A stretch of DNA of 64,000 nt from Methanobrevibacter ruminantium M1 (GTDB lineage Archaea; Methanobacteriota; Methanobacteria; Methanobacteriales; Methanobacteriaceae). Below the pieces are notes generated by a model. The model had not been told where the DNA came from and made no database searches. It was given only the letters and a program-made list of their open reading frames with translations. Positions 33,984-50,442 of this stretch are shown here, one piece after another (within the stretch, counting starts at the first letter, position 1; every line of letters starts with the position of its first letter). The translations under genes were made by a program, and so were the position numbers. The stretch is from NCBI RefSeq assembly GCF_000024185.1, contig NC_013790.1:1945501-2009500 (forward strand). Reading direction: 5' to 3'.

Positions 33984-34457
33984 CTAATTTACAAAAATAT
34001 ATGATACTTCATTTATCAAAGCATCGAATCTTCCATCTTTTTCATAGACATTCAAATAGAAATATTCCCTAAATTCCCTCAAATACAATGTGAAATCATC
34101 AAATTTTGTTTGATACTCTTCTTGAGATATTCCACCATCCAAATAATTGAATTTTAACAAGATTAAAAGATTAAATTTAGAGAAGGAGTCAAATACTCTT
34201 AAACAATCTTCACGGTTTATAGATTCAATATTCTCTAAGACATAATAAATCATCTTTTTGATTTTAAGAAATGTGTAATATTCTCTTTCAAATTCTTCAG
34301 ATTCGTCTAGAATATCAGCCATACAAATCAATCTGCCATTTATGGAAGAAATAAAATCATGATAATCCTTTTCATCTTTTCTTGAGTAAATTGAACTTAA
34401 TGCATTAGAAATATAATTGAAAAGATTATCCAATTTCTCTTTGATTTTTACGTCCAT
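33984..34457 (-). CDS. Helical partner protein of the PIN module (locus 1, second copy)
   Basis: 157 residues, predicted almost all alpha-helical, no recognised domain. It is a clear paralogue of the gene at 35208: shared MDVKIKExL, NNISN/NYISNAL, a YVLEN/YVLDN, FDSxxKF, LEGI/LDGG, FDxYL/FTLYL and YYLNxY/FYLNVY pattern over the whole length. It is the last gene of a three-gene minus-strand run (35729 to 33984). The ATG at 34457 is chosen because the paralogue begins with the same MDVKIKE; a TTG at 34466 is possible. Partner or antitoxin role is inferred only from its position next to a PIN-like protein. Confidence 0.7.
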   Translation of the reverse strand: MDVKIKEKLDNLFNYISNALSSIYSRKDEKDYHDFISSINGRLICMADILDESEEFEREYYTFLKIKKMIYYVLENIESINREDCLRVFDSFSKFNLLILLKFNYLDGGISQEEYQTKFDDFTLYLREFREYFYLNVYEKDGRFDALINEVSYIFVN

Positions 34458-34539
34458 TATTTTCAACTCTTTTAATATAATTTTAAAACATTCTTCTGTT
34501 AAATCCCGGGAATAAATTATTTTATTGGTTAAACCTACT

Positions 34540-35192
34540 TTAATTCAATAATTTATATTTGTCAATATTTAATTTGGAAAAAGATTTGACAGCATTATAA
34601 AATTCTTCATCAACAGTCACAAATATTGTAAACTGATCTTTTGCAAAATCATGAGCATCTAAAATAATTTTACGATCCTCCTCATGAATGCCTAAATTTT
34701 CTAAAGAATGCCATAAATCACAATATTTTCTAAAATTATTTAAACCGCAATTATAAAGTTGTAGTTTATTTAACAAATAATCTTTATTTATTTCGAATTT
34801 CGAAGGAACTTCATTTGAGCATTTGACAAAACAGGAAAGGAATTCCGATTTTTCTTTAAAAAGTCCAAAAAGTATTTCTTCCCAAAAAAAATTAATCAAA
34901 TTTATTTTTTTATCCATATCCAGATTATATCACTTGTTTGTGACAATACAAATTGTTCAAAAGAACATTTATTAAGAAATATGCGATTATTATTTTCTAA
35001 AGCTAGAATAATTTCATCAAAAAAATATTCAAATGATGTGAAAATAGATTTATATTTTCGCTTATATTCCTCACAAACATTGTTTGAGCAGTAGAATTCA
35101 GTGGAATTTACAATAAAATCGTCAACTGTTTTAAAATACTTATCTGGGAAAAATGTATATGCAATCGCAATATTTGTATCAATAAAATCCAT
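34540..35192 (-). pseudogene. PIN-like nuclease split by a frameshift at an A7 slippery site
   Basis: Two overlapping frames: 34902-35192 (96 codons, MDFIDTNIAIAYTFF...) gives the N-terminal PIN strand with Asp5 and acidic CEEYKRK; 34540-34917 (125 codons) gives the C-terminal PIN part (DRKIILDAHDFA, FVTVDEEFY). Together (about 217 residues) they match the intact 227-residue protein at 49759. The break lies at ATA AAA AAA TAA; A-AAA-AAA at 34911-34905 is a classic -1 slippage heptamer directly before the stop, and slipping back one base continues as ...KKINLINFFWEE. So it may be a one-base deletion, a programmed frameshift, or transcript slippage. GGGAGG precedes the ATG at 35192, only 15 bases after the partner gene. 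Confidence 0.75.
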
Positions 35193-35207
35193 TATATACC
35201 TCCCATA

Positions 35208-35729
35208 CTAATCAAGTATAATTTGAGATATTCTAGGTATAACATCATCAAATTCGCCAGTTCTTTGATATATATTTAAATAATATTCCGTTTTTACTTC
35301 ATCCAAATATGTATCAAATTTATTAAAATAACTTAAATATGATGATTTGGAATAAATACCTTCTAAAAAGCTAAGTTTGATTCTTAATAATTCAAAAAAT
35401 TTAAATAATGAATCAAATATGACAGATCTTTTAGAAGAGCATAGAGAACCATAATTGTCTAAAACATAATTTAACATTCTTCTAATTACTAGAAAAAAAG
35501 AAAATTCTTTTTGAAATTCTTTTAATTCTTTTAAAAACATAGCAAAATCCAACAAATATTCTTTCATTGAAGAAATTAACTCTAAAGATTTCTCTTCATC
35601 ATTTTTGTTATTTAATGATGTTAATGTGTTTGAAATATTATTAAGAAAATTCTTCAATATCTCTTTGATTTTTACGTCCATTTTGATTTCAATCCTTGGT
35701 AAAGTGATTTTTTCATTGATATTGTACAT
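35208..35729 (-). CDS. Helical partner protein of the PIN module (locus 1, first copy)
   Basis: 173 residues, helical, hydrophobic-polar pattern, no known domain. Paralogue of 33984-34457 and, more distantly, of 49167-49748 (shared FxxIRRMLNYVLDN / FREIQSMMNQTLDY, IFDSLFKF / IFNEFKNL and EYY blocks). It is first in the operon; the PIN-like gene starts 15 bases after its stop, so the two are co-transcribed and probably coupled. GAGGGTGATAAA gives a strong SD for the ATG at 35729; MDVKIKE at codon 17 aligns with the start of the paralogue. A perfect palindrome lies 60-90 bases upstream. Antitoxin-like or co-factor role is inference from arrangement. Confidence 0.72.
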   Translation of the reverse strand: MYNINEKITLPRIEIKMDVKIKEILKNFLNNISNTLTSLNNKNDEEKSLELISSMKEYLLDFAMFLKELKEFQKEFSFFLVIRRMLNYVLDNYGSLCSSKRSVIFDSLFKFFELLRIKLSFLEGIYSKSSYLSYFNKFDTYLDEVKTEYYLNIYQRTGEFDDVIPRISQIILD

Positions 35730-35790
35730 TTTATCACCCTCTTTAACATAAAAAATTCACCCATAATTTTTTTTAGTTTCTAATAATCCA

Positions 35791-35816
35791 ATAATTCTTG
35801 TCCTAAAAAGAATTAT
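35791..35816. promoter_or_regulatory. Perfect palindrome upstream of PIN module, locus 1
   Basis: ATAATTCTT (35791-35799), loop GTCCTAAA, AAGAATTAT (35808-35816). It sits 62-87 bases upstream of the partner gene start at 35729, a position suited to an operator; locus 2 also has upstream palindromes, with a different sequence. Confidence 0.5.
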
Positions 35817-36250: not shown

Positions 36251-36268
36251 GAATAGCCGATGCTATTC
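36251..36268 (-). terminator. Hairpin overlapping the stop of the GRE-like gene
   Basis: GAATAGC (36251-36257), loop CGAT, GCTATTC (36262-36268), spanning the stop codon at 36263-36265. Confidence 0.6.
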
Positions 36269-38296
36269 TTCAGTATCCTCTTTGGTGATTATCTCTTCTC
36301 TGATTAAGTTTATTTGGAGCTGGTCGAAACCGTATCCGATTGCTTCTACAAGGATATTGGTTAGTTGTTTGTCGTTTGTGTTTATATTTAGCTCTATAAG
36401 GTTTCCGTTTATTGCTGAGCTTTTGTAGTCTAAGCTTGAATTGAAGATGAATATATCTGAGTTTGTCTTTTGGCTTGATATTAAAAGTCTTGCTGGCGGG
36501 ATGTCCTTTAATGTGGCGTCAAAAGATGCTCTCTTATCATTCTTTATCATGTACCTTGGGGCGCTTAATCCAAACTTGAGCTTTCCGTCGAGGCTGTTTT
36601 TGTAGTCTTTTATTGAGTCGCCTATGAATGCTATTATTTCGTTGGAGATGTTTGCTATCTCAGGGTTGTTTTGTGGGAATCTTACTGGATTGTTCTTAAG
36701 GAGGAGGAATGTTTCTTGGTATTTGCCCCTTTTGAAGTTGTTTTTTCTCATCTTATCCAATTCTATAAGGTCTATGGTCTTGTCCTCAAAGACTATTTTC
36801 TTAAGGTTATATAAGCTGTTTACAGTGTTTTGGAGCCCATAGAATCTAATTCCAAAATGATTGTTTCTGGAGCCTCCTTGGGATATGTCCAGTTGGTTTT
36901 CATATGATTCAGCTGAGAATAATGATAAGAAAGGGTCTTGGTTCCATTGTATTTGATCTAGGGCGCTTATTTTTTCTTCGATTTCCTTTTTTAGATTGTT
37001 CTTATAAAGCTCCATAAGGTAGTCTAAGTTTATTATGAATCTTAACTCATTCTTGTCTTCAAATATGTCATTCAATGGCTTTAAAAGAGAGATAGATGAT
37101 AGGTTGCCTTCATCAAGGCAGGATATGAATGTAGGTTCAAGATGGGCTGATAGAATATAATTATATGCGTCATCGCTTGAGTATCCGAAGTCGAGAAGCC
37201 TTGGGATGATTGCCTCATCATTTGAGAAGACTATGTTTGAATCTATATTGGCCTCAATGGTGGCTCCGTCAGCTGTAAATATCCGATTGTCAATGATAAA
37301 ACTTACAGCGACACCCTCTTCAATGTATATTGTGTTTTCGTTAAGGCAATCTAATGCAAGGTGGATAAGGTCGTCTGGAGTCTTATAGCTTAGTCTGAGT
37401 GCTATCTTAACATCCTTTGGATTGACCTGGCCGATTGCCTCAAGGAAGATATAGGTGAGGTCATTGTAGAAATAGTATTCGCCGAACTCATCGATGTACT
37501 TTCCTCCAAGGGTGATTAGCTGGCTTGCCAGTCCTGACTCGTCATCGGTCTTATACCAGGAGTATGAATCGAGGGCCTTTAGGAAATCCTTAATCAGTTC
37601 CAATGCCTCCTTGTTAGTTATGTATCCATCATTCAGGTCGTTGTAGTAATAGTCTTCAAGGATACGGTCAAGACGGCCTAGGCTGTTTAGGCTGTGGCCT
37701 GTCTGATATAGGAGTTGATTAAGGAAAAGTATTCTTTGAAGGGCCTCTTCAAAATGGCTAGCCTTCTTGTCGATTATGTCCTCAAAGATGCGGATGTACT
37801 TTGACTTGTCATCACGGGAGGACTTTGCCAATGCCTTGTTTATTTCATATATGAGAAGCTCAATTCCATCAAGGATAGCGAGCATTTCCCTATTGTAGTC
37901 GGAGGACTGGTTTCTGAAGCCTGGACCTTCCTTAGGGTTGAAGTAAAATTCGTTGAGGTCATAGATGGAATAGTCTAGAATAAGTGAGTAGTCGATAGGA
38001 CTGTTTATTATTTGGCCATGATAGTCAAGATTTCTAAATTCGTCTAGGAAGTATATGAATCCTTCAGGATGGATTGTGATGTCTAGCTTTCTTAGAAGGT
38101 TCTTGATTTGGACCCCTTTTGAAAACTTGGAGCTTGTTATATAGAACTTGTGCATGTTTTTGGCAATGTAGCTGCTTGCATCTGTTCCAACCCCAAATCT
38201 GCGGTTTATCTTATTGTATGTGGAAGCCAATATGGCAGATGAGCTGTTTGCACTTTCCTTATTTCGAATCTTTTTAATGTTATCAAATAGACCCAT
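36263..38296 (-). CDS. Glycyl-radical-enzyme (pyruvate formate-lyase-like) homologue lacking Cys and Gly-radical motif
   Basis: 677 residues with clear PFL/GRE-barrel blocks: LNQLLYQTGHSLNSLGRLDR (191-210), NKEALELIKDFLKAL (228-242), QLITLGG (259-265), NPKDVKIALRLSYKTPDDL (292-310), NIVFSNDEAIIPRLLDFGYS (354-373) and the C-terminal LDYKSSAINGNLIELNI plus GYGFDQLQINLIREE. In active enzymes the block after SxEDA reads GCVEP; here it is SAHLEP (383-388), so His385 replaces the catalytic Cys. The chain ends right after QLQINL..., where active enzymes continue into the RVxGY glycyl loop, which is absent. A 25-residue insertion lies near 325-350. It therefore cannot work as a normal glycyl radical enzyme; a scaffold, regulatory or novel non-radical role is possible. 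GGAGG precedes the ATG. No activase gene is adjacent. Confidence 0.78.
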   Translation of the reverse strand: MGLFDNIKKIRNKESANSSSAILASTYNKINRRFGVGTDASSYIAKNMHKFYITSSKFSKGVQIKNLLRKLDITIHPEGFIYFLDEFRNLDYHGQIINSPIDYSLILDYSIYDLNEFYFNPKEGPGFRNQSSDYNREMLAILDGIELLIYEINKALAKSSRDDKSKYIRIFEDIIDKKASHFEEALQRILFLNQLLYQTGHSLNSLGRLDRILEDYYYNDLNDGYITNKEALELIKDFLKALDSYSWYKTDDESGLASQLITLGGKYIDEFGEYYFYNDLTYIFLEAIGQVNPKDVKIALRLSYKTPDDLIHLALDCLNENTIYIEEGVAVSFIIDNRIFTADGATIEANIDSNIVFSNDEAIIPRLLDFGYSSDDAYNYILSAHLEPTFISCLDEGNLSSISLLKPLNDIFEDKNELRFIINLDYLMELYKNNLKKEIEEKISALDQIQWNQDPFLSLFSAESYENQLDISQGGSRNNHFGIRFYGLQNTVNSLYNLKKIVFEDKTIDLIELDKMRKNNFKRGKYQETFLLLKNNPVRFPQNNPEIANISNEIIAFIGDSIKDYKNSLDGKLKFGLSAPRYMIKNDKRASFDATLKDIPPARLLISSQKTNSDIFIFNSSLDYKSSAINGNLIELNINTNDKQLTNILVEAIGYGFDQLQINLIREEIITKEDTEE

Positions 38297-48454: not shown

Positions 48455-48619
48455 CCAATATTAAAAAATAAAATCAAATGTTTGTCTAAATATTAAATAA
48501 AAGACATAAAAAAGGTTAAATTTAAATATAATGAGATTAAGAGATAATAGCACACACATCAAACGAATCACAAAAACGAATATTTGAAATTTAGAAGAAC
48601 TGATAATCCACGAATACAT

Positions 48620-49091
48620 CAGACCACAATAAGATTGATTTAGAAACTAAAAACATAATTTCTAAAGAGAGAATAGCTGAAATCAAAGAAAGTGCCGAAT
48701 CGATTGGAGAATATCTCAAAGAGGAACATATCTTTCCAAAAGAATATTACGACTTTATGGAGATTCAATATTTATTAAATCAAGCCCTGGAAAATGAAAA
48801 CATAAGAGAAATAGAGATTGTTGTAAAAATATTAAAAGAGTTTGAAAAAATCACCCAAATTAAATTTGAATTATTGCATAAAGAGTTAATGGAAAAGCCA
48901 AAAAAGGGCTTAAAGCAAAGCAAATTTTCGATAATATGAATCAAAACTCAAAAAAAGAATTTGAAAAAAGATATGAGGAGTTCTCTAATTTCTTTTTTAA
49001 ATGCGAAATAGAATATCATACATTAAAAGGCAAAACAAAACATTTGATGGCGAAAAAATATTTAAGTCTTTTTGATATGGAATATCTGTAA
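48620..49091 (+). pseudogene. Frameshifted copy of the PIN-module helical partner
   Basis: The first frame reads ISKERIAEIKESAESIGEYLKEE and EYYDFMEIQYLLNQALENEN and stops at 48937-48939; a second frame carries on with NSKKEFEKRYEEFSNFFFKCEIEYHTLKG. Joined, they match the intact neighbour at 49167 along its length (IKEIKETTESIAEYLK, EYYDFREIQSMMNQTL, EIFEKRYGEFSKFFF). No valid start. Confidence 0.7.
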
Positions 49092-49166
49092 TAATAAACT
49101 TTCACTATGAAATCAAATCAAAAAAAGGACATTTGAATAAATTTATTAAAAATAAGGAGACTAAAT

Positions 49167-49748
49167 ATGTATATGAATACACCAAGCCAGAAAAACATTG
49201 ATATTAAAAACTATGAAAGAATTTTCAAAGAAAAGATTAATTTTGTAGTTGAAAAAATCTCAAGGTTTTTTAAAGGAACTTCACAAGAAGATTCTTTTTT
49301 AAACGAAAAACTACTCGATTTATCTGATCCCTTTATTAAATCCCGAATAAAAGAAATTAAAGAAACAACTGAATCTATTGCAGAATATTTAAAAATAGAA
49401 TACATCAACTATGATGAATATTATGATTTTAGAGAAATTCAAAGCATGATGAACCAAACTCTTGATTATGGAAGTATCGAAGAGTTAAAAATCATATTAA
49501 AGATTTTTAATGAATTCAAAAATTTAACAGAATTTAAATTTGAACTATTAAGCAATAAATCCCACTCTAAGAGCATTAGCTTTAAAGATATTGATGAAGA
49601 ATCAAAAGAAATCTTTGAAAAAAGATACGGAGAATTTAGTAAGTTCTTTTTCAATCGTAAACGAGAGTATTATGCAATTTTTGAAGGAGAATGTGAAGAG
49701 GACGTAAGTGAATTCTTTGAATTGATGAAAAAGCATGCATTAAAGTAG
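49167..49748 (+). CDS. Helical partner protein of the PIN module (locus 2)
   Basis: 193 residues, strongly helical and charged, no known domain. Distant relative of 35208-35729 and 33984-34457 (shared FREIQSMMNQTLDY-like, IFNEFKNL, ELL and REYYAI-like blocks) with a longer N-terminus. AAGGAG precedes the ATG by seven bases. The PIN-like gene starts ten bases after its stop, the same order and tight coupling as at locus 1. Function unknown; by arrangement an antitoxin or obligate partner. Confidence 0.75.
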   Translation: MYMNTPSQKNIDIKNYERIFKEKINFVVEKISRFFKGTSQEDSFLNEKLLDLSDPFIKSRIKEIKETTESIAEYLKIEYINYDEYYDFREIQSMMNQTLDYGSIEELKIILKIFNEFKNLTEFKFELLSNKSHSKSISFKDIDEESKEIFEKRYGEFSKFFFNRKREYYAIFEGECEEDVSEFFELMKKHALK

Positions 49749-49758
49749 AGGGGATGAA

Positions 49759-50442
49759 ATGAAATTATTCATAGATAGCAATGTAATTATTGGTTACTGC
49801 ATAGAAATAGATTATTGGCATTATTATGCTGAAAACCTAATGAAAAATGAAAATATATACTGGTCAACTACAGTAAAAGGAGAATCTGAATATAAACTTG
49901 AAAAATTAATTAAAACTTATTCAAACTTTTTTAATCAAATTAAAGAAGATTTAGACAAAGAGATTATTAGTAAAACTGAATTCATTAAATTAGTGAAATC
50001 TATAGAATATATTAATAACAAAAAAGTACCTTTCGAACAAGAAAATTTAGCAAATTTAGTTTGGACAAAAGGTGGATGGTTAGATGATGTAAACTCTATA
50101 GAACTTAATGAAAATCTAAATTTAATTTCACAAGGACTAAAGAAAAAGATGTATAGAAATTATAACTACTGTGATGAAATGTTAAATTTATACGAAAGAC
50201 AATTCAAAGCAGAATATATTCAGTTAGTCAAAAGATTAGAAGAGCTTAAAAGAGGAAACAGAGAAATACATTCTCCAGATAGTGAAATACTTGTAGATTG
50301 TCATGATTTGTCACTTTCACAAAATCTAGATATGGGCTTTATTACTTCTGATGGAGATATAGTCTATTTTAAAAAGGAAATTAAAAAAATGACCAATATA
50401 AAAGACATTATTTATTTAAAAAATGTTCATAGGTACACTTAA
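49759..50442 (+). CDS. PIN-like nuclease of the two-gene module (locus 2)
   Basis: 227 residues. PIN acidic positions are visible: D6 in KLFIDSNVIIGY, E42/E44 in KGESEYK, D180/D183 in ILVDCHDLSL and D198/D200 in ITSDGDIVYF, in the correct order for a metal-dependent RNase. The domain is stretched by about 100 helical residues between the first and last strands, unlike compact VapC toxins (about 130 residues). GAGGGGATGAA precedes the ATG. Paired with the helical protein directly upstream. RNA cleavage is predicted from fold only. Confidence 0.78.
   Translation: MKLFIDSNVIIGYCIEIDYWHYYAENLMKNENIYWSTTVKGESEYKLEKLIKTYSNFFNQIKEDLDKEIISKTEFIKLVKSIEYINNKKVPFEQENLANLVWTKGGWLDDVNSIELNENLNLISQGLKKKMYRNYNYCDEMLNLYERQFKAEYIQLVKRLEELKRGNREIHSPDSEILVDCHDLSLSQNLDMGFITSDGDIVYFKKEIKKMTNIKDIIYLKNVHRYT

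Follow-up and report, generated by a model that had tools for sequence, protein, structure and literature searches.

The genome of Methanobrevibacter ruminantium M1 probably encodes, at two loci, a lineage-restricted module of the type II toxin-antitoxin kind, in which a long PIN-domain protein (P) would be an RNase toxin and an all-helical partner (H) its protein antitoxin. This reading rests on the PIN fold of P, its invariant acids, the order of H and P, their co-divergence and the survival of H where P has been lost. The gain is a PIN-nuclease family missed by curated models, together with a putative antitoxin fold which has no known relative, both in methanogens that produce ruminant methane. 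Where a module once stood, orphan copies of the putative antitoxin clearly document toxin loss in nature, and, should P prove to be an RNase that arrests growth, rumen methanogens would carry a built-in brake of interest for methane control.

The two loci lie in a 64-kb stretch of the finished M. ruminantium M1 genome, referred to here as the window. All open reading frames named in a first-pass annotation, which had described a helical protein paired with a PIN-like nuclease at both loci and a frameshifted nuclease at the first, were found in the window (Table 1). Locus 1 (35729-33984) has the order H, frameshifted P, H, and locus 2 (48620-50442) the order decayed H, intact H, intact P; the tight coupling noted earlier was measured exactly as described, with 15 bases between H and P at locus 1 and 10 bases at locus 2. 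The upstream piece of P1 holds the equivalents of D6 and E42 and the downstream piece those of the DAHD and T.D motifs, and both are most similar to the intact P encoded by G018 (48% and 55% identity). The listed start of H1b is TTG, with an internal ATG four codons in. The decayed copy H2-psi aligns in pieces with the DNA of the adjoining intact H2 (65-76% identity), and its stretch 48757-48939 matches the H profile (E 3.5e-7).

Table 1. Features of the two loci (window positions) and related loci in other genomes (locus handles).
Feature	Position	Strand	Description	Basis
H1a	35208..35729	-	helical partner protein, putative antitoxin, 173 aa, intact	ORF; full-length H-profile match, E 9e-31
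P1	34540..35192	-	PIN nuclease, gene broken by a frame change	pieces 35192-34902 and 34917-34540
H1b	33984..34466	-	second helical paralogue, 160 aa	ORF and H-profile match; 39% identical to H1a
H2-psi	about 48600..49095	+	decayed H copy, several stops and frame changes	DNA and profile similarity to H
H2	49167..49748	+	helical partner protein, putative antitoxin, 193 aa, intact	ORF; profile match; AlphaFold helical bundle
P2	49759..50442	+	long PIN nuclease, 227 aa, intact	ORF; AlphaFold PIN fold; Foldseek top matches VapC
Inverted repeat ATAATTCTT-8-AAGAATTAT	35791..35816		possible operator upstream of H1a	9-base arms, 8-base spacer, p 0.10
Inverted repeat TTTACTATTTAT-1-ATAAATAGTAAA	48430..48454		possible operator upstream of H2-psi	12-base arms, 1-base spacer, p 0.02
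Other modules with intact H and broken P	L095 first copy, L105 second copy, L124, L126, L131, L132, L133, L134, L138
H without P or with a P remnant	L218, L219, L220, L222, L223, L224, L225, L228, L229, L233, L234
Thermosome-linked H-like loci	L226:2959-3462, L230, L231, L232, L236

With profile E-values between 1e-18 and 1e-32 (intact H copies of the window) or between 1e-21 and 1e-48 (P pieces), the homology of these parts stands far above chance, and a search of the M. ruminantium M1 genome gave no H match beyond the window copies. The statement that the module is present twice thus stands as family membership, but not as recent duplication, duplication having been part of the earlier reading: the P tree assigns the window loci to two distinct supported clades, one joining locus 1 to the G018 module and the other joining locus 2 to the modules of G012 and G102, and H is about 20% identical between them. 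A recent duplication of one locus into the other was rejected on these grounds, and the two loci are, by tree and identity, old and separate members of the family.

VapC toxins are proteins of about 130 residues assigned to PF01850, and VapB antitoxins usually carry an N-terminal DNA-binding domain of the RHH, AbrB, HTH or Phd type. The AlphaFold model of P2 displays a PIN fold (mean pLDDT 91, pTM 0.85), and its nearest solved folds are VapC/PIN proteins (7vwo, 5ed0 and 1v8o; Foldseek probability 0.96-0.97). The best Foldseek E-value is 0.038 and does not reach 0.001, modest values that are probably due to the insertion described below, which lowers the whole-chain score. As in VapBC toxins, the four core acids D, E, D, D are present (D6, E42, D180 and D198, plus D174), and the D6-E42 and D180-D198 spacings correspond to the canonical VapC-type motifs I-II and III-IV. 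All five residues are invariant in 46/46 intact modules while mean P identity is 26%, which implies strong purifying selection on P for as long as it is present. Structure prediction and alignment thus uphold the PIN fold with aligned acids that had been read from the two window copies.

P departs from VapC in its length (215-240 aa, with a median of 224 aa over the 46 modules) and in an insertion between motifs II and III that is helical in the AlphaFold model; the 100 residues first given for it are better put at about 75-100, its helical nature and the greater length of P being as described. P also lies below the Pfam gathering score: P2 matches PF01850 with E 0.09 and 13.8 bits against a curated score of 23.6, and only 4 of 24 P family members match it even at E 0.1, the member at locus L099 reaching 21.5 bits. 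A PF01850 search across the Order listed ordinary VapC-sized and about 610-aa PIN proteins, and the long P genes were absent among the matches listed.

H differs from VapB as well. Across the modules it is an acidic protein (median pI 4.9) of 159-210 aa, with a median of 176 aa, and the AlphaFold model of H2 is an all-helical bundle of six helices (pLDDT 80, pTM 0.73) to which no PDB fold was matched. Neither this model nor Pfam, NCBIfam, PADLOC and PHROGs revealed an RHH, AbrB, HTH or Phd domain, which agrees with the earlier view that the partner is not a short DNA-binding VapB. These four collections yielded no significant H match of any kind, and, with P below the PF01850 cut-off, the module indeed matched no curated family, as had been suspected; PADLOC protein models of known defence systems were likewise unmatched by the module. 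A PDB sequence search with the family profiles returned chance coiled-coil or helical matches only. Panacea (SocA-like, PF13274) is an antitoxin domain which partners many toxins; its match to a window H was weak and insignificant (E 0.63), other H members were unmatched, and the domain was rejected, for want of a significant match, for H as well as for the 290-aa partner protein at L099.

The distribution of the module looks lineage-restricted, as judged by scans that sense fairly close relatives. A single P sequence, used as query, detects relatives in 45 or more of the 139 Methanobacteriaceae genomes; the profile search adds to this number and brings in another, remoter set of proteins that are 215-240 aa long, and all strong P-profile matches among 152 genomes of the phylum fall in one family. 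When 84,980 species of bacteria and archaea were screened with the two peptide patterns of best conservation, a scan that detects fairly close relatives only, 16 relatives came up, exclusively in Methanobrevibacter, Methanosphaera or Candidatus Methanoflexus records; to judge by isolate name, many of these are metagenome assemblies from rumen or gut. No relatives were found in plasmids and phages, searched with one P sequence, or in viral contigs, scanned with short patterns.

Within this lineage the two genes are closely tied. Had they usually occurred apart in related genomes, the proposed pairing would have lost its ground; in 46 intact modules, however, H is the next gene ahead of P and has the same orientation, the gap between them being 3.5 bases at the median. 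This arrangement of two small, adjacent, co-oriented and closely spaced genes, with the putative antitoxin first, is that of type II toxin-antitoxin systems, and the upstream, near-overlapping partner gene, the patchy distribution and VapC as nearest solved fold are shared with VapBC in particular. H and P distances are correlated across modules (Mantel r 0.86, against no more than 0.14 in any of 2000 permutations), and the two genes therefore travel together. Four further intact P genes each have some gene in the partner position: at L083 and L097 it encodes a short protein of at best marginal H similarity, at L123 a truncated H precedes P, and no solitary intact P was seen among the loci examined. 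At L099 (2962-4540) the partner of a divergent PIN protein of the P family is not H but an unrelated protein of 290 aa, which suggests partner exchange.

The decay of the module is lopsided. Ten modules, window locus 1 included, combine an intact H with a broken P, and at eleven more loci an H of intact length stands with P absent or present as a remnant only (Table 1); the reverse, an intact P with a damaged H, was met once, at L123, where a mobile-element remnant truncates H. This amounts to about 21 loci against one. A ratio of 20:1 comes with a one-sided p of about 1e-5 under equal odds, or of about 1e-4 with gene length as the weight, and the observed ratio is slightly stronger. Some of the frame changes seen in metagenome assemblies may be sequence errors, but such errors should strike H too. 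The P lesions lie at many different positions and are therefore independent. The site between ribD-like and PHP-domain genes carries the full module in seven genomes and H without an intact P in four, and the site near thiC and lysS shows full, decayed and H-only states. Empty sites are found as well: at eight loci of the same genus the locus-1 position is vacant, with about 200-360 bases between the flanking genes, and at L206-L208 it is taken by a radical-SAM activase-like gene. The G018 module is located between the upstream gene of the locus-1 position and a small kinase gene, and the same two genes adjoin without a module in G013. Toxin loss with the antitoxin staying, no retention of the toxin without a partner, patchy presence and empty sites are likewise features of type II toxin-antitoxin systems, and this pattern of loss is as predicted for such a pair and unlike that of an enzyme and its subunit.

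VapBC systems are autoregulated via inverted repeats at the promoter. The perfect palindromes reported upstream of both window loci do exist, with p 0.10 at locus 1 and 0.02 at locus 2 against dinucleotide shuffles, but as a regulatory signature they found no support: over 48 upstream regions (46 intact modules and the two window loci) arms were no longer than chance (mean 7.4 versus 7.1) and no conserved operator was found. A palindromic operator was rejected as a family trait on the strength of these 48 regions.

Pairs of PIN toxins with unusual upstream antitoxins were brought together by the same guilt-by-association logic by Makarova et al. (2009; PMC2701414), who listed COG2442, COG2886, COG2880, COG1753 and MerR-like proteins as non-VapB partners, all of them DNA-binding folds or linked to such folds. 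Unlike these antitoxins, H matches none of the models searched, and the text of that survey makes no mention of Methanobrevibacter or Methanosphaera. In the open-access literature, the M. ruminantium genome paper contains one passing 'toxin' match, unrelated to the H and P genes, and no 'PIN' match; the M1 operome paper refers to an 'anti-toxin' gene cluster, PIN and VapC terms being absent from its text, and may name an H or P gene as hypothetical.

Under the toxin-antitoxin reading, H would be made first, from a transcript presumably shared with P, and the helical protein would bind P directly and block its active site. Once H was lost or degraded, P would be free and translation would stop, the substrate of P probably being a structured RNA, for instance a tRNA or an rRNA. 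Against this reading stand the lack in H of the usual VapB-type DNA-binding domain and of a conserved operator among the upstream regions, Foldseek E-values for P above 0.001, and the orphan H genes, which could mean that H has a separate job. A related and possible, though not a likely, explanation is that of an abortive-infection module, in which H would serve as a sensor or guard, letting P go only when infection occurs, and virus pressure instead of addiction would keep the pair. Patchy distribution, frequent loss and empty sites would fit such a role, as would one orphan H directly upstream of brxA-brxB-brxC and another lying a short way beyond the 3' end of a putative PIN defence pair (PDC-S70); however, most modules occupy fixed housekeeping sites and not defence islands, PADLOC defence models did not match, and relatives in viral contigs or phages were not found. 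Both explanations share their molecular parts and differ in the trigger for release, and the confidence given to the one overlaps with that given to the other. Of the original suggestion of a toxin-antitoxin-like or defence function, the first half is thus supported by the pattern of presence, absence and decay, whereas the second leans on one orphan H beside BREX genes. A doubtful extension of both would be a toxin-antitoxin class private to the Methanobacteriaceae, whose non-DNA-binding helical antitoxin is reused as an orphan immunity protein (beside BREX, at old sites and next to the thermosome gene) and whose toxin is released by viruses in abortive infection.

It is unlikely that P serves as a non-toxic RNase in regulation or processing, with H as its obligate subunit or activator. 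Strict pairing and co-divergence would arise here too, and the conservation of an H-like gene beside the thermosome gene in Methanosphaera would be in line with it, yet a subunit is expected to decay with its enzyme, while H stays intact where P is dead at about 21:1 and persists as an orphan at chromosomal sites that carry full modules elsewhere. It is very improbable that the modules are selfish or drifting mobile-element remnants devoid of present function: decayed copies are many and IS remnants lie beside a few modules (L123, L229), but the active-site residues are invariant at a mean identity of 26% and the recurrent flanking genes show no shared recombinase. Equally remote is a programmed frame change at locus 1, whereby a slippery A AAA AAA heptamer would yield full-length P at a low rate. 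The heptamer lies in the zero frame (34902-34920, minus strand) directly ahead of the stop codon that ends the first P1 piece, where a -1 slip leads into the downstream frame; alignment to the intact P of G018 nevertheless puts the lesion a few codons ahead of the heptamer, which is probably a coincidence, and broken P genes of other genomes carry their lesions at quite different positions. With lesions so scattered, programmed frameshifting was also rejected as a family-wide cause of broken P.

The tie to a variable glycan locus, proposed from the surroundings in the window, extends to three loci which adjoin glf, the window's included, but was rejected as a rule, the other sites being housekeeping loci; among the recurrent flanking genes no shared recombinase was seen. 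The gene of 677 aa flanking locus 1 (36263-38296) has by eye the look of a glycyl-radical (pyruvate formate-lyase-like) enzyme; it is without the C-terminal loop of its counterparts in sister genomes, and the adjoining activase-like gene of L206-L208 is absent. The orphan H beside BREX, in genome G064, is located at L224:2992-3408, directly upstream of brxA, brxB and brxC, and the candidate defence pair (PADLOC PDC-M19A-like and PDC-S70 PIN) at L225:661-1772, a few genes upstream of its orphan H. In five Methanosphaera-group genomes inspected, a probable H-like gene of about 170 aa adjoins a thermosome subunit gene, and similar weak H-like matches occur in about 20 Methanosphaera genomes; this thermosome-linked gene looks like a domesticated orphan.
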